From Umbelopsis ramanniana AG (Eukaryota; Mucoromycota; Umbelopsidomycetes; Umbelopsidales; Umbelopsidaceae), in contig NW_026252120.1 in assembly GCF_025399195.1 (NCBI RefSeq), positions 1-64,000 of the forward strand: a DNA stretch of 64,000 nucleotides, read 5' to 3'. The notes under the pieces are model-generated. The model had not been told where the DNA came from. It ran no database searches and saw nothing but the letters and a program-made list of their open reading frames with translations. The position numbers were made by a program, and so were the translations under genes. Position 1 is the first letter of the stretch, and every line of letters begins with the position of its first letter. Below are positions 50,846 through 62,669 of the stretch, piece after piece.

Positions 50846-52962
50846 CTAAGCGACAACTGCTTGGCTAATGGTAATATCACCGTAGGGCTTTGCTTGCTTG
50901 ACCTTGACCATGTCTTTAGAAGAAAGAACCAAGACATCAAAGAAGAGCTTGACAGCGTCTGCCCGCTTCAAGTTTGGGCTCGCCATTTGTTGATATGTGA
51001 TCTTGGGCTCCTCTGCCATTTGCTTCTTCTGGTCAAATGTAACTTGTAGTCTTTCCATAGTATCGTTTGTCTGCTTGCTGATGCCCAAAGGAGTCAACAG
51101 CTGTGATGCCGATGAAGTAACTGGGTTTACATTTGCTTCATAAGGCATAATGCCTGCCTGTGTTTCTGGCACATCCTTTGCTGCTATTGCTGCTGCTGCT
51201 GCTGCGGCTGCGGCTGTTGCAGCTGCTGTAGTTGCCTCCTATAAATCGTCATAGAAAAAAGGGAACGATGGTTAGAATAGCCGGCTACTTTAACGTTACT
51301 TTTTGCATTATAATGTACGACAATTTACCTCGCCAGCTCCAAGGACAATATCATATTCATCCTCCTCTGTAGCAGTTTGGAGTTTAGTTGTTGGTCCACT
51401 GATCAATTTGGGTTGCTTTCTCTGATGCTCTTCTTCTTCGTCTTCATCACCTAGACTGGTAACGCTAGGTGATCTCTTGCGACTTCGCGTGAAGAGAGCT
51501 TGAAGTTCGGGTGCCAAATTGAGAGGAGCATTAAGGTTGATGAAAAACTTGATGCCTTGCTTTTCAATCGACTTGAAACGAAGCATCTCAGGAGATGTTG
51601 GAAGGAACGTTGCCTCTGTGACAATGTCGGAGGTGTCATTGATTTGATCCCTTATCTTGTCATGAGGAAGCTCAGTGACCTTGTCAATAATTAATCGTCG
51701 TCGGTGGATCTGAGGTGTATTTGCTTGAGCAGACGGGGTTCCAACATCAAAAAGTAGGTCATCGCCAATGGCCTGCGTATCTGCAATGAGCGCTACATGA
51801 GGGAGGAGAGTCAGCAAAGCTTGGTTAACAAAAGGTTTCAGCTGAGGTAGTTAATTCTTTACCAGAGTTGCTTTCGGTAGTCATGGATGCATCAGGAAGA
51901 TCAAATGATGATTCATTCTGACGCATGTCAGGACTAGCCTCAGGCAGGAAGTCGGGTTCAGGGCCAAGATCAAAGTCAAATTCTTCATTGTTGTTGGTAT
52001 CCTTGATATTCATGCGTTCCAGTGGAGCACCAATATCGTCCATGGTGAGTGATCGCTCAAAAGCTGCATCTCTTCCCATCTCTATTTCATTCATGTCGTC
52101 CAGGCCGAGATCGGCGAGCTGTAAATCTGACTGCGCGCCATGCTGGAACAAATCACGACCGGTTTCGATGCCATCCAATATATTATCGTTGAATCCAAGA
52201 CTGAAAAGTTGTGCATCATTACCACTTTGGCTGATGGTAATATCTTGTCGGCGAGATATATTGCTCATTGAAAGTGAAAGGTCCATAATTGGCTCATTTG
52301 GGTCTCTGTTTGAAGAAACATTCATCGTCATTAGATATCTGTCTGTCTTGTCTACTGCATTTCTAGCACAAAATTATACCTGTTGAGATGCAAAGGTGCC
52401 TCAGGTAGGAGAATGTCGAATTCTGTAAGATCGTCTGCCAAAGTGATAGCATTGATGTTGGCGACGTGACGGTGGGTATCGGGCATATCAACATCACCCT
52501 TCTTAAAAGCCTATTGATAGAACGAAAACAATATTTTGTGACTTGTTAGACATCTCAGAATCCAATATGCCCTACGCGGTATGTCCTAATGCTATTCTGT
52601 TTTCTTACAGTCTTAATTTTGACCAGTGCGTCATTGCAGTCTTCAAGAAGGTAGCGCGTTTTTCGCGAGTATATGCGTACAACACCGAGCAAAAGCTGAC
52701 CGGAAAGGCGCAACGTAAGCATCTCCTGCTCTTCTGCCGTGATGGCGTCTATATTAAAACATGCAAATGTTATCATTGTGTAATGCCAATGCGAAGAGGG
52801 GGGAGGTTTTTCCATGCAGATAGATAAAGAGAACATACCAACAGTTTTTTCAATGTTGGTCTGCAAAAACTGATTCTTCGATATCTTTCTCTCCCAATGT
52901 GCAGCTAGCCACACTCGGGCTAATGGCCCTTTCTTTGAGATGATTGCGTCCGAATACATCAT
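50846..52962 (-). CDS. MCD1: Cohesin alpha-kleisin subunit RAD21/SCC1
   Basis: Six exons on the minus strand: 52839-52962, 52609-52748, 52380-52510, 51863-52305, 51329-51792, 50846-51238; 564 aa. It closes the SMC1-SMC3 ring; separase cuts it at anaphase. The N-terminal Rad21/Rec8 domain is unmistakable (MMYSDAIISKKGPLARVWLAAHWERK, ITAEEQEMLTLRLSGQLLLGVVRIYSRKTRYLLEDC). The middle is acidic and Met/Asp-rich. The C-terminal winged-helix region has a SPNLKRADAVKLFFDVLVLSSKDMVKVKQ.KPYGDI stretch. An Ala-rich linker precedes it. It matches mitotic RAD21 better than REC8. Two ACGCG cores lie 33-46 nt upstream of the start. Confidence 0.93.
51189..51228 (-). repeat. GCA/GCC trinucleotide tract coding poly-Ala in RAD21
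   Basis: Imperfect GCN triplet run (TGC/GGC on the plus strand) encoding an Ala-rich stretch with one Thr and one Ile in the linker before the C-terminal winged helix. Such tracts are prone to length change. Confidence 0.8.
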
Positions 52963-52994
52963 GTGGAATGCGAGAAAAGGTAACTAAACGAAAG

Positions 52995-53008
52995 ACGCGG
53001 TAACGCGC
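52995..53008 (-). promoter_or_regulatory. Paired ACGCG cores (MCB-like) upstream of RAD21
   Basis: ACGCGG at 52995-53000 and ACGCGC at 53003-53008 sit 33-46 nt before the RAD21 start. Both carry the ACGCG core bound by MBF-type Swi6/Mbp1 complexes, but neither is the full ACGCGT palindrome. A role in G1/S transcription is inferred from yeast MCD1. Confidence 0.35.
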
Positions 53009-53186
53009 GCAATTTTTTTTTCTTCTCGTGTACAGGAATTTTTTTTAAAACTCAGCCCCCCCCACAACTCTCATAATGCTTGCCATCATCGTGCAGCTTT
53101 TCACCGAACCGAAAGCCGTGCATTCAAGAATAGTTTAGGCGTTACATCCCTGGGGTTTCTATCGCCTGATTCAAGGAATTCAACAA

Positions 53187-53193
53187 TATATAA
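53187..53193 (+). promoter_or_regulatory. TATA box of the cysteine-rich peptide gene
   Basis: TATATAA beginning 41 nt before the ATG at 53228, followed by a short CT-containing leader. Close spacing typical of strongly expressed or inducible small genes. Confidence 0.55.
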
Positions 53194-53227
53194 CCCCAGG
53201 CCTCTTAGTCTTTCTGTTCTGGTTGGT

Positions 53228-53536
53228 ATGTTCTATGTTTTGCTTATCATAGCCGCCTCTACAGTAATTGCCATCACTCTGCCAACGGCTATGGTATTAC
53301 ATGACTGTTCATGCTCCTCACCACCTCAATGCGCAAGTTTACGTTGTAAGTAAAGTTCAGCTAAACGGGAGAGTTCTTCAAAGCTATAAAGGTCGACCGT
53401 ATTCAATTCCCTCCTGTTTGCATGCTTCTGCTTTTTGTTAGATATTGACATGAGGATGTGCCATGATGAATGCGATTTCGCTCTACCTTGCACCAGAAAA
53501 TGTTTGAAGTCAAAGTGTTTGCCAGGCACATACTAG
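53228..53536 (+). CDS. Small secreted cysteine-rich protein (candidate novel)
   Basis: Two exons, 53228-53345 and 53442-53536, joined by a canonical intron (GTAAGT ... TTTTTGTTAG); 70 aa. Residues 1 to about 20 form a signal peptide: MFYVLLIIAASTVIAITLP, a hydrophobic core with small residues near a likely cleavage site. The mature part of about 48 residues has eight cysteines spaced C-x-C-x5-C-x10-C-x3-C-x5-C-x3-C-x4-C, enough for four disulfides, and is basic towards the C-terminus. Without splicing the frame ends after 41 codons. I recognise no family. Composition resembles fungal small secreted proteins (effector-like, antimicrobial or hydrophobin-unrelated signalling peptides). The function is unknown. 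Confidence 0.7.
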
Positions 53537-54117
53537 CAGTACTATTTTTCTAACCACTTATCCCATTCAGTTTCCCTTTCGTATGTATAAATATAGTTGC
53601 CTGTACACAAGCCGTTTTGACTTGCACCTAGCCAAAGAATTTCCCATTGGACACAGATGTTGTAAAATACATTTTTGCATTTTCATGACAGAAAACAAGC
53701 CGTGCTCATTTTGTTTGCGCCGTTAAGGGCCACATTAAGATATCATTCGTATACAGCATTTAGGGATAAAAGGGAAGAACAAGGAAAGAAAACGGGAGAA
53801 AGAGAAAAAAAAAAAAAAAAAGGTATTCTATGGTACGTTATGTGAGGAAAGGTTTTCATCAATATTTTTGTTACGACCAGATCCATCCGACCAGTCTTCA
53901 CAATCAGATAGTAAAGCAAGTAGGGATTGTTGAGGCATAGTGAAAGGTGATTTTCATTTTTTGTCGATTAACTTGTTTTCATGTTTTTTTGGGGGGTTTC
54001 GTTTTCATTACTTTTTTTTCTCTTAGGCCTTATTATTGTGTTGAAGGTGGGGGGAGGGGATCTTGGTGTATGTGAGTCGTGCGTGCGATTTTGAAGACGT
54101 ATATATGTCATGCTTTC
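53537..54117. other. Convergent 3' spacer
   Basis: 581 bp between the cysteine-rich gene and the G-alpha stop. A17 run at about 53806-53822 and T/G-rich stretches near 53990-54060, consistent with 3' ends. No gene seen. Confidence 0.45.
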
Positions 54118-55487
54118 CTACAACAAACCAACATCTCGAAGATTGTTCTGGATAATAATGTCGTTCACGGCTGCCATAACAAACTTCACTTGCTGTGTAT
54201 CGGTAGCACAGGTAAAATGAGTATAGATTTGCTTGTCATCAGACTGGTTAAGTGACACAAATCGGTTGAGAATATAGTCGCACGCAGCATCATAGTTTTC
54301 ACCACCCTGATTGAACGGAAAGAAGCGTGAGTAGAATAGTAAAACCACATAAAAGTTGTGGCAAAGCCCTTACTCTGTAATCCGGGAAGTAGTCAGCCAA
54401 TGGACTGATGGGTAACTTTTCGGCAAACCGATCAATCTTGTTCAAGAAGAGGATGATAGAGGTTTTGACAAACCAACGTGAGTTGCAGATAGAATCGAAC
54501 AAGGTCAAAGCTTCTTGCATACGATTCTAAACCACATGAGGAAAATTAGTAACTGCAAATTGTAAAAAAGATGGCATTGCTAGATGACCACTTACCACAG
54601 TTTCATCTTCAATTAGAACTTGATCGTATTCAGAAATGGCCACCAAGAAGATAATCGCAGTAACGTTTTCAAAACAGTGAATCCACTTCTTTCGTTCGGA
54701 ACGTTGACCACCGACATCGAACATGCGATAGGTAAGATCACCAATAATAAAGGTGGTTTCGGTAATACCCGTAGTCTTGACGCGAGATCGAAGGACATCC
54801 TGATCGCTGGGAGTATAACGTGAGTCGCTAATGCGGTCTATGGAATCAAAGTAGCTATTGAAGAAAGAAAATTGTTGGAAAGGGGGAAAATAAGGGTACG
54901 TTAGTGGTGGATATGAAAACTGCAGGGTGAGGGGAAAATAGACTTACTATTGAGCAGAATCATTGAGCTGATATTCGTTGCTTCTGTTGAACGCCTGTCT
55001 GACACCGTTATCTTGCCAAAGCGCCTTGACGGCATTACCAACGTCTTGTGGCATGATATCGGATTCAATCTGAGGTGGCTGCTCAAGAATAATAGTGGCA
55101 TGCATACTGTTATTTGGGTTCTGGAAATTGATGCCCATGGTTTCCATTGCTTCTAAGATAACTCGCATCGATTGTGTAGTGTTACTGTAGATGATTTCTC
55201 TGAAGCTTTCGCGTTCATCCTGTGAGTAGCCGCCGTCATGAATCAATTTCATCTGCTTGAGGATAGTTGACTTTCCAGATTCACCAGCACCTACATTGAA
55301 AAAAGTGATGAGCGGATGCTGAGTTGAAGGTGGCGGTAATGGTTGTCAAGAACAGAAAAGAAAAAGTACCTAAAAGCAACATCTTGATTTCATTACGCAT
55401 GTTTGCTCGATCTCGTTTTAATTGGTTTTCAATTTCGTCATTGCGAAGCTTTCCATCTTGATCTTCTACTGATTGACAGCAACCCAT
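54118..55487 (-). CDS. Heterotrimeric G protein alpha subunit
   Basis: Five exons on the minus strand: 55370-55487, 54948-55290, 54596-54854, 54374-54526, 54118-54306; 353 aa. Plasma-membrane GTPase relaying receptor signals. MGCCQS at the start gives Gly2 for myristoylation and Cys3/Cys4 for palmitoylation. GTPase motifs fall at canonical numbers: GAGESGKS (40-47), arginine finger R178 in [21 protein letters not shown] with Q204, FLNKID (NKxD at 269-272) and TCATDT (323-328). Fungal genomes of this type carry several paralogues and I cannot say which this is. The C-terminus ends RDVGLL, lacking the Cys at -4 that pertussis toxin modifies in Gpa1/Gi-type subunits. Confidence 0.95.
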
Positions 55488-56132: not shown

Positions 56133-57205
56133 TCATATAAGCTCTACCTGTCCTTCTTCCAGCAGTAATTTGATGTCGCTATAACGAACCATATATATGG
56201 ACTCCGGAGAAAGTCGAATCTCGTATTGCCTGACGACCATTTGACGTGAGTAACATAAACTGCCGAGAATGTTTCAGCCATCTTTTCCTTACCTTCTTGA
56301 TTCTAGTTCAAACATGCCTTGCTCTTCTTTACCACGTACAATTACAGCTGAATATTCATCAGGAACACTAACTTTTGGACGGTAAGACAAAAGATTAGGT
56401 CCCATGTCCAGTTTTTCATAATTATCATTCGGCTTCCCCGGAACTGCCTATCATGAACAGCGAGCTCTTGTCTTACCAGAGGACAAAGTGTTTATCTTTT
56501 CGTTGACATCTTGCTGTGACTGTGGTAGTGTATTAAGAAACGATTTGGAATAATGTTTTTCTAGCAATTCGGCGTAACTTTGGCGTTCCCGGGAAAGATA
56601 TTTTCTCAGATTAGGAACAATAAATTTGGAGTCGAACAGCATGACCAGAAACTCACCTTTGTGCATATTCATACTCTTTATCTGATAGTCGCTCTCGTAC
56701 ATCCGGTCGATTCAGTAGATACGTGGTATATTTCTCGATCTATTGTGACCGTGTTCAGTTTCCCGAAATAAGCGGATCGTTTGTCAACGATTTGTTTACC
56801 TTGTATAGTCGCGTTCGCAGATAATTGCGTATCAAGAATTTAATTCGCTCCATCTCTGTCTGGTACAACATGGATCGAAATCGCATATCTACGTTTTCCG
56901 AAAGCCCTTCCATAGCCACCATGCCCTATACAAACGACGTTGAATATTTCTAGCTTGTGAACAGGACTGACTCTTTTCTTGTCACCTACCTGATGCTCTA
57001 TGAGCTCTGTAAGATCTTCCACCAGTCGCCGTCGGTATGGTAGAATCTCTGGAGAATTTCGTTCATTGATCCAGATCTGTGTCATTTCTGCAACATCGTC
57101 GGTAGCAAATTCGTCATCAAGCCCTGTTTCGTAAAGGGCTTCGCTCGATTGCGTTATATGTATCGAAGAGTTCAATGTGCTATTGTTGTCCATATTCGGT
57201 ACCAC
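56133..57205 (-). CDS. SLD5: GINS complex subunit SLD5
   Basis: Six exons on the minus strand: 56990-57205, 56799-56924, 56657-56739, 56477-56577, 56293-56443, 56133-56229; 257 aa. GINS joins Cdc45 and MCM to form the CMG replicative helicase. Family blocks: acidic N-terminus, MTQIWINERNSPEILPYRRRLVEDL, MVAMEGLSENVDMRFRSMLYQTEMERIKFLIRNYLRTRLYKIEKY, SYAELLEKHY, and the C-terminal B-domain ending SIYMVRYSDIKLLLEEGQVELI. The model needs a 33-nt intron (56444-56476). A longer alternative using the AAAAG acceptor in exon 5 would drop about 24 residues. A Met four codons into the frame is an equally likely start. Confidence 0.88.
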
Positions 57206-57384
57206 GCCCTCAAGGAGAAAGGCGAACGCGTCGAGAAAAAAAAAATAATAACGTCGAAAAATCCACGTACCCAGAGCTTTTTGTTGTGACCACCAAAAAT
57301 TGTTAAAGCGTGTTTCAGCTCTTCCACTATTGATTCTACATTTTTATTTACACTTGTTACATTTTTCTACCCAAACCAACTATA
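57206..57384. promoter_or_regulatory. Shared divergent promoter SLD5 / DPB4 with an MCB hexamer
   Basis: 179 bp between the start codons of two replisome genes. It contains ACGCGT at 57226-57231, the full MCB palindrome bound by MBF in yeasts, 21-26 nt from SLD5, next to an A-rich tract at about 57236-57246. No TATA box. Confidence 0.5.
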
Positions 57385-60164: not shown

Positions 60165-60687
60165 TGAAGCAAAGCGAACGAAGAAGGGAGAGAGTTGAAT
60201 CCCTTTTCTAAGGATTTTTTTTTTCAGCGATGACTAGAGCTACATTATTTAGTACGGACAACGCAGCATTGTGTCTGCATATTTGGTAACACCCATTACC
60301 CCTTTGCTTTGGAAAGGGCCTCCGTTTGCGAGTGGGTTGTGTCTGTTTATATATGTATACATGTTTTATTTGTTCTTATTCCACATTTTTGTTAATAGTC
60401 TGGATTTACATAACGCGAAATCGATCACAGCTGCTGTCATGTGTATGGAACAAAGTGGAAAACGTAATTTCATCATCGTCTCAGGAACAGACTTTGCTGG
60501 AGTTTAAAAGTTTGGGTCAATGATGAAAAGTCAAAGTCGTCTAATTATGGAAATTTTGGTTTCATTACATCATTTCGTGCACCCTTGCCGTTCCGCTGAT
60601 GGGATCAAACGAAAGAGTATATAAGAGGTGAGCAAGGATTTGTTATTTCGATCATTCCACCAAAAGAATAACACCCAACTTATAACA
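60165..60687. other. Divergent spacer with TATA box for the CsbD-like gene
   Basis: 523 bp. TATATAAG at 60618-60625 lies about 63 nt before the CsbD-like start. A CCCCT (STRE-type core) occurs at about 60299-60303. Nothing else recognised. Confidence 0.45.
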
Positions 60688-61188
60688 ATGTCTGCCCCTA
60701 CCACAAATCAAAACACTGAGAACCAATCACAGCCATCCCAGATTGTTGGCAACATCAAGCAATACGCTGGTATTGCTGAAGAGACCATTGGCAATGCCCT
60801 TGGTAGCCAAGCCTGGACTGACTCTGGTAAGCAGCTCAAGGAAGAGGGTCTTCAAGAGATCCAAAAAGCAAAGGAGGTCACCGCTCAAGCTGCTCCCAAC
60901 AAGACCAATGCCAACGTCAACTCCGTTGTGGGTGGAATTAAGGAGGAAGTCGGTAACTTGTTAGGCAACGCCGAAATGGCCACCAGCGGTGCTCAACAAC
61001 GTCAAAAGGGACACACTGAATACGAAGCTGCCAAGGCTGGTGAATACCTTGAAGGTGCTGGCGATGCCGTTCGCGGAAAGGTTGAAGGTACCGTCGGTAA
61101 GCTTGTTGGCGATGAGGAAGCTCAGGCACACGCAGAACAATTGCACTTGAGCGGAAAGCAAGCCATGCAATTGAACGAACCCAAATAA
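60688..61188 (+). CDS. CsbD-like stress-response protein
   Basis: An intronless 166-codon gene. The protein is hydrophilic, rich in Ala, Gly, Gln, Glu and Lys, and contains three related helical repeats of the CsbD type, each with a 'G.IK...G...E..GN..G' pattern: GNIKQYAGIAEETIGNALGS, GGIKEEVGNLLGNAEM and GDAVRGKVEGTVGKLVGDEE. Such proteins are small, heat-stable and induced by stress in bacteria and fungi; the mechanism is unknown. Strong codon bias and a TATA box suggest high inducible expression. The in-frame Met 20 codons upstream is in the leader and was not chosen. Confidence 0.85.
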   Translation: MSAPTTNQNTENQSQPSQIVGNIKQYAGIAEETIGNALGSQAWTDSGKQLKEEGLQEIQKAKEVTAQAAPNKTNANVNSVVGGIKEEVGNLLGNAEMATSGAQQRQKGHTEYEAAKAGEYLEGAGDAVRGKVEGTVGKLVGDEEAQAHAEQLHLSGKQAMQLNEPK

Positions 61189-61370: not shown

Positions 61371-62669
61371 TTAGATGCTTCCCGCAACACCGCCGTCACG
61401 AATACCAACGGCTTTTTCCACCACTTCGCGTAAAAGATCCACCAAGGTACAGCAAGAGATGACCAACAGAGCCTCTAATTCATCAATAGAGTCGCCACCG
61501 ACGTCGGCCATGGTTGCATTATGTAATTTAAGTTTGCCGATGTTCGTAAAGTAGCCCATACCATGACTATCAAATGAGGCGATCACTTGCCTTGGTTTGT
61601 CAATGACTTCGCAAATCATATTGTGTGTAAGTAACGAAGGTCGTGCCCATCGTAGACGTCGTGTTTTGTACTCCATTTCATAAACAAATAACAGCGGGGT
61701 GACCGTCATGTTCTTGAATTCAGTGCTGTTATCCTTCGCTTTGCTGTTGCCAATGGCTTCACCCCACGCAATGACCATTTGATTCTGGTATGCCTGCCTC
61801 TTCGTTTCAGCCACCGCTGTACCGCGTTCCAACGCTTTGCCCAATGGAATTCGATATAGTGTGTTTTGAAATCCCCAATTGTAAGAGTGTGGTTGTATCT
61901 TCCGATAGCAGAGCTTTTTCGTATCGCCCTCACCCAAAAAGATCTCATGATGTTGAGGCTTAAGAAATGAATGCTTCTTGATCTGAAATTCAGTACTGTC
62001 GACAGTATTGGTTCGTGCTGTAGACGATTTCATGGATATGGATGTATATTGCTTGGCCATTTGCATGAAGCCAGTAGCGGGTTCTTCGTTGGACTCTAGT
62101 GTGGTTGCAGCAGGGGGCGATGATAGAATGTGAGATTTATCATGATTAGCATCTTGCTTCTTGGCGGATGGAACTTCACTGTCAGGGACATCTTGTATAC
62201 TGGTTGAAACTGAATTAGTGTCAGCAGGCAAGGCGGATTCGGAGGAGGTTGCAAGTGGGATGGATGAAATGATATGAGATTGGCTGTGAGTTGCGTTGGG
62301 AGTTTCCGGCAAAGGAGGTTCTATCGCAGGGCTACTTGTTATGGCTGAGCTGGCCACAGTAGACGATGGTTTGATTGAAGGTTGCGGAGACAGGACGGAG
62401 CTGCTGGCGTCTATCACCGTCAAACCAGAGCACTGCCTGTCGTACTCTTCCACGGAGAGGCCGTGGAGTGCGTTACCCAGAATTTCAGTGTCTTTGGCAG
62501 TGACGATGTCATCTAGAGCATTAGGCTTTTCGTAAATTTGTAATTCATCGACATTGGTAGGTTCTTCGTAATAACGTTTCTGTTCCTGAGTCATTCCAAC
62601 AAGTGGCGAAAAAAGGAAGCGTAGAGGAGTTTTTAAATTTATCGAGGGCCTATTTTTGAAACTTTCCAT
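61371..62669 (-). CDS. Conserved-looking protein of unknown function with disordered N-terminal half
   Basis: An intronless 432-codon frame. Residues 1 to about 240 are Ser/Thr/Pro-rich and probably disordered. From about 245 on the sequence is globular-looking, with KKHSFLKPQHHEIFLGE, YNWGFQNTLYRIPLGK, VTPLLFVYEMEYKTRRLRWARPSLLTHNMIC, and a glycine-containing FDSHGMGYFTNIGKLKL block, ending in a helix that leads to a short Gly-rich tail. I do not recognise the family; the beta-rich C-terminal half is reminiscent of tubby/LURP-type folds, but that is a weak impression. The first Met lies 41 bp from the divergent methyltransferase start. Met26 (62594) may be the true start. Confidence 0.75.
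   Translation of the reverse strand: MESFKNRPSINLKTPLRFLFSPLVGMTQEQKRYYEEPTNVDELQIYEKPNALDDIVTAKDTEILGNALHGLSVEEYDRQCSGLTVIDASSSVLSPQPSIKPSSTVASSAITSSPAIEPPLPETPNATHSQSHIISSIPLATSSESALPADTNSVSTSIQDVPDSEVPSAKKQDANHDKSHILSSPPAATTLESNEEPATGFMQMAKQYTSISMKSSTARTNTVDSTEFQIKKHSFLKPQHHEIFLGEGDTKKLCYRKIQPHSYNWGFQNTLYRIPLGKALERGTAVAETKRQAYQNQMVIAWGEAIGNSKAKDNSTEFKNMTVTPLLFVYEMEYKTRRLRWARPSLLTHNMICEVIDKPRQVIASFDSHGMGYFTNIGKLKLHNATMADVGGDSIDELEALLVISCCTLVDLLREVVEKAVGIRDGGVAGSI

Follow-up and report, generated by a model that had tools for sequence, protein, structure and literature searches.

The region between positions 53228 and 53536 of the window (the whole analyzed stretch of 64,000 nucleotides from the soil fungus Umbelopsis ramanniana AG) raises the question of whether it holds a real two-exon gene encoding a small, secreted, cysteine-rich peptide, as a preliminary description had proposed, or an intergenic stretch in which gene-like signals came together by chance. 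The features considered are listed below.

50846..52962, minus strand: Rad21/Rec8 cohesin subunit, K450DRAFT_244771 (Pfam PF04825 and PF04824; exact spliced match)
53187..53193, plus strand: TATATAA, a possible TATA box by sequence match, starting 41 nt upstream of the ATG
53228..53345, plus strand: exon 1, with the signal-like leader, cysteines 1 to 3 and base 1 of the Tyr40 codon, which the intron splits
53228..53272, plus strand: predicted signal peptide, residues 1-15 (VIA/ITL), from hydropathy and the (-3,-1) rule only; cuts after residues 12, 17 and 20 also fit
53346..53441, plus strand: intron of 96 nt, GTAAGT...TTAG (GT-AG), phase 1; its retention would bring stops into the frame
53442..53536, plus strand: exon 2, with cysteines 4 to 8, ending in GTY and then a TAG stop
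54527..55345, minus strand: G-protein alpha subunit, given as the span of two open stretches (Pfam PF00503)
61371..62594, minus strand: single-exon gene of 407 aa, used as the yardstick for synteny and divergence; orthologue in Umbelopsis sp. AD052, BC943DRAFT_321582

Gene model and genomic setting

The two-exon structure was borne out, and joining both exons gave a protein of 70 aa with eight cysteines. When the window was translated unspliced, the peptide frame ran into a stop after 41 residues. Rad21, the adjacent gene, has introns of 70, 74, 90, 90 and 98 nt, and the 96-nt intron of the peptide gene is therefore of a normal size for this place. Retention of the intron would yield a 41-aa product with four cysteines, ending at the stop codon 53351-53353 just 3' of the donor, and such a truncated form could exist.

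The deposited U. ramanniana AG protein K450DRAFT_244771 mapped exactly to 52962-50846 on the minus strand with five introns, so that the window belongs to this strain or to one with the same sequence over that protein. The peptide locus is thus divergent from Rad21, with 265 nt between the two ATGs, and the G-protein alpha gene lies downstream in convergent orientation. Further along the window, an open frame at 56840-57343 (minus strand) had no Pfam match at E 0.001; its start may resemble the GINS subunit Sld5. Another open frame, at 60625-61188 (plus strand), gave a CsbD-like match just below the Pfam cut-off (39.9 vs 40.0 bits). CsbD-like proteins are a mainly bacterial family of stress proteins, and the match here lies in a fungal genome. 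The yardstick gene had 27 relatives among the matches listed, from Umbelopsis and several other Mucoromycota, and these carried no precomputed Pfam domain.

The TATATAA element was confirmed at 53187, where the preliminary description had placed a TATA box. The number expected by chance per 100 nt of one strand was 0.011 for TATATAA and 0.064 for the looser TATA[AT]A. The element carries little weight, because its closeness to the ATG would demand a very short 5' leader.

Rfam returned no matches over 52900-54200, and the repeats in the same interval consisted of one short direct family and six inverted pairs, mostly runs of A/T.

Leader and mature peptide

The N-terminal segment is hydrophobic, with a mean Kyte-Doolittle hydropathy over ten residues of up to 2.78. 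The first charged residue is H25, and the initiator Met alone precedes the hydrophobic core. Among the four sites of the (-3,-1) type, the best-looking was the one after residue 15. The mature part, previously put at about 48 residues, was corrected to 55 (cut after A15) or 50 (cut after T20). An uncleaved membrane anchor, which would hold the cysteine-rich part at the cell surface or within the wall, is an alternative reading of the same segment. It fits the length of the hydrophobic stretch, the lack of charge before H25 and the hydropathy mean of 1.4-2.8 in ten-residue segments starting at residues 1-16, but the cleavage-like sites and the single residue ahead of the core argue against it, and an anchor is considered unlikely.

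The cysteines occupy positions 27, 29, 35, 46, 50, 56, 60 and 65, with 1, 5, 10, 3, 5, 3 and 4 residues between them, in exact agreement with the pattern C-x-C-x5-C-x10-C-x3-C-x5-C-x3-C-x4-C given earlier. Small secreted cysteine-rich proteins, a descriptive class, combine a short open frame with several cysteines, an N-terminal signal peptide and a location outside the cell. The peptide shows the first of these traits with its 70 aa and eight cysteines, and its leader is a putative signal peptide by hydropathy and the (-3,-1) rule. These cysteines might bind metal instead of each other, in a metallothionein-like or copper-binding peptide either retained or secreted; eight cysteines in 70 residues, with one C-x-C and two C-x3-C motifs, would suit such a role. 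Metallothioneins, on the other hand, are cytosolic and richer in C-x-C and C-x2-C repeats, whereas the hydrophobic leader points to the oxidizing secretory pathway, which makes metal binding improbable.

A leader-bearing peptide of this kind would be directed into the secretory pathway at the endoplasmic reticulum (ER) and cut after residue 15 (VIA/ITL). Within the ER, the mature peptide of about 55 residues would form four disulfides from its eight cysteines and adopt a compact fold, and it would then be released and act outside the cell. The mature peptide contains six K/R and five D/E residues, and is thus near neutral overall, while the Cys56-Cys65 segment is basic (R, K, K, K). Since the charge is confined in this way, a specific target is favored over bulk membrane lysis. 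A defensin-like or inhibitor-like peptide used in dealings with competing microbes or roots in soil is the best guess, put at somewhat below even odds. A passage of a review lists Umbelopsis among putative root endophytes (PMC10386755).

Chance expectation, codon choice and the orthologue in Umbelopsis sp. AD052

The frequency of such an arrangement by chance was estimated from short models, with one intron or none, in which a hydrophobic leader and a site of the (-3,-1) type were combined with eight or more cysteines after residue 20. The 64-kb window held one such model, the peptide gene itself, and no other leader-bearing model reached even six cysteines. In 600 simulated windows (third-order Markov versions of the window) 14 such models were found, that is 0.023 per 64 kb, a figure to be read as a guide only, the filters having been set with the gene already in view. 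A smaller simulation in which intronless models were left out gave none in 20 replicates. Scaled to a genome of 22.8 Mb, the rate corresponds to about eight chance models. Hence, the earlier argument that the anatomy of the gene makes chance unlikely held for this particular place and was overstated genome-wide, where several such models are expected. With 14 models in 600 simulated windows, anatomy alone was rejected as proof against chance; by itself it is indecisive, and the support for the gene comes from outside evidence. Short spliced genes can be spotted by reading raw sequence, but their anatomy alone does not distinguish them from chance.

The reference for scoring codon choice, and also the training set, was formed by the window's 17 long open frames. 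The peptide coding sequence had a synonymous codon score of 3.6; 56 chunks from these frames, each 70 codons long, averaged 4.4, and 46% of them scored at or below the peptide. When the same peptide was coded at random 2000 times, 1.2% of the codings reached a synonymous score as high. The five other frames of the coding sequence scored between -6.5 and 2.0, two of them being positive (1.9 and 2.0). The synonymous codon choice of the peptide is gene-like. The total codon score, in which amino-acid content is included, was -4.3 for the coding sequence, below background, and the long-frame chunks averaged +9.2; the five other frames, with stops penalized, gave -20 to -36. This low total probably reflects an unusual amino-acid content, although it would also be expected of a non-gene.

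A single candidate and match was obtained among 5.8 billion proteins: the hypothetical protein BC943DRAFT_321595 of Umbelopsis sp. AD052, of 70 aa (E 7.5e-37). The two sequences were identical at 66 of 70 positions without gaps, although the AD052 orthologue is a gene prediction itself. BC943DRAFT_321595 has the same length, all eight cysteines and the same residues 39-48 across the splice junction; identity was 92% over residues 1-39 and 97% over residues 41-70. The four differences were T12P, S37D, L38Q and E49I. The AD052 orthologue is already annotated as a hypothetical protein and, since the annotation has the same 70-aa form, the remark that genes of this type are routinely missed by gene finders found no support in this case. 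The 90% cluster of the orthologue has two member sequences, and the second may be the annotation of the U. ramanniana AG genome itself. The AD052 contigs that carry BC943DRAFT_321595 and the yardstick orthologue, whose counterpart lies 8 kb away in the window, are equally long (719803), so the place is very probably syntenic in AD052.

The yardstick gene was used as the measure of divergence between both strains. Its residues 1-200 differed from the AD052 orthologue by 36 substitutions in 190 aligned positions plus 10 gap residues, and residues 201-407 by 20 substitutions in 207. The first half of this gene thus changes faster than the second (36/190 vs 20/207). The four changes in 70 residues of the peptide were fewer than in yardstick residues 1-200 (36/190, p = 0.007), and marginally so when compared with the whole yardstick (56/397, p = 0.054). 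In these alignments, the peptide changes more slowly than the variable half of the yardstick gene. Differences that need at least two base changes made up three of the four in the peptide and seven of the 56 in the yardstick (p = 0.013). They fell in codons 37 and 38 (53336-53341, among the 3'-terminal ten bases of exon 1) and in codon 49 (53468-53470). With change concentrated at positions 37, 38 and 49, there is a hint of a few fast sites in an otherwise constrained peptide, four changes being a small number. Four changes placed at random would spare all eight cysteines 61% of the time; their retention in AD052 was consequently rejected as evidence for the gene, and the suggested check, whether the cysteines are better conserved than the remaining residues, lacks power when two sequences are compared.

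The alternative is an intergenic stretch with a leader, a splice pair and eight cysteine codons that persists in a close strain, where a gene finder called it. It agrees with the simulated rate, the total codon score and the two wrong frames with positive synonymous scores, but is made highly improbable by the 66 of 70 identical residues without gaps or stops, set beside 36 changes and 10 gap residues over residues 1-200 of a nearby gene, and by the gene-like synonymous codons. The preferred reading is a real two-exon gene with a leader-bearing, cysteine-rich product, to which a probability of about 0.87 is assigned. This figure covers that statement as a whole; the metal-binding and membrane-anchor alternatives overlap with it, and the probabilities do not sum to 1. 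The preliminary description of a real, spliced, probably secreted and cysteine-rich peptide of no recognized family was thus supported, secretion being predicted from the leader.

Distribution and comparison with known cysteine-rich families

Searches for relatives outside AD052 gave the following results. No Pfam family matched the peptide at E values up to 10, the AD052 protein had no match in NCBIfam (a bacterial and archaeal library), and no PDB entry was found either by sequence or by a two-sequence profile. Protein and DNA searches of the U. ramanniana AG genome, each of which scored one candidate stretch, revealed no second copy. Scanning of viral contigs and of prokaryote genome contigs gave 10 and 107 pattern matches, respectively, none of which was confirmed. 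The literature on secreted or antimicrobial peptides and genomes of Umbelopsis and Mucoromycota, judged by titles and the beginnings of abstracts, contained nothing recognized as bearing on this peptide.

No relatives were found in Umbelopsis sp. PMI_123, U. nana, U. vinacea or U. isabellina, whose proteins are in the database, by a protein search that needs shared exact words of five residues and could miss diverged homologues in these four. Three locus tags lie between the yardstick gene (INT43_003731) and Rad21 (INT43_003735) in U. isabellina. In the window, at least four other open frames lie between those two genes (G-alpha, 56840-57343, an MFS transporter and the CsbD-like protein). An annotated U. 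isabellina orthologue at this place is therefore unlikely. Possibly the gene is confined to the ramanniana clade; possibly its sequence has changed too much elsewhere for a search based on five-residue words.

The best reading is that of an orphan, probably disulfide-stabilized secreted peptide of one Umbelopsis clade and, as such, an ordinary kind of fungal gene. Orphan small secreted cysteine-rich proteins are common in fungi. The proposal of a new class of small secreted protein goes too far with one relative known. With this locus Umbelopsis, a fungal genus that diverged early, gains one well-supported orphan peptide that is probably secreted. A bolder reading, regarded as a long shot, is that of a previously unseen disulfide fold, with C-x-C ahead of two close C-x3-C motifs, that would have been born beside Rad21 in one Umbelopsis clade and would already be under selection, the fast positions 37, 38 and 49 facing a partner outside the fungus, for instance a plant root or a rival microbe. 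Should the fold prove new, the known range of disulfide scaffolds would grow.

An AlphaFold2 model of the single AD052 sequence placed a helix at residues 43-52 and strands at 59-61 and 64-66, with a pLDDT of 52.7, a confidence too low for use. Foldseek with this low-confidence model returned no PDB match at E values up to 10.

Hydrophobins and CFEM proteins share a leader and eight cysteines with the peptide. Hydrophobins carry two Cys-Cys doublets, whereas the peptide has no adjacent cysteines; this difference, together with the Pfam result at E up to 10, led to the rejection of hydrophobin membership. CFEM membership was rejected on the same Pfam result and on a spacing that differs from the usual CFEM pattern. 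The alpha-hairpinins, in which two C-x3-C motifs are joined by a loop, usually a longer one, and which have four cysteines in all, resemble the peptide in having two such motifs, both located in exon 2 here. Unlike them, the peptide has a loop of five residues between the motifs and four further cysteines, and with no Pfam match either this family was also rejected.

The CS-alpha-beta defensins have C-x3-C first and C-x-C downstream of it, whereas the sole C-x-C of the peptide precedes C-x3-C. Membership was rejected on this order and on the lack of a Pfam match at E up to 10; the PDB searches by sequence and by fold gave no match. As in the peptide, the plant and fungal defensins with eight cysteines combine a leader and about 50 residues with a C-x3-C motif. 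In the low-confidence model, C46-x3-C50 of the peptide would lie on a helix followed by two short strands.
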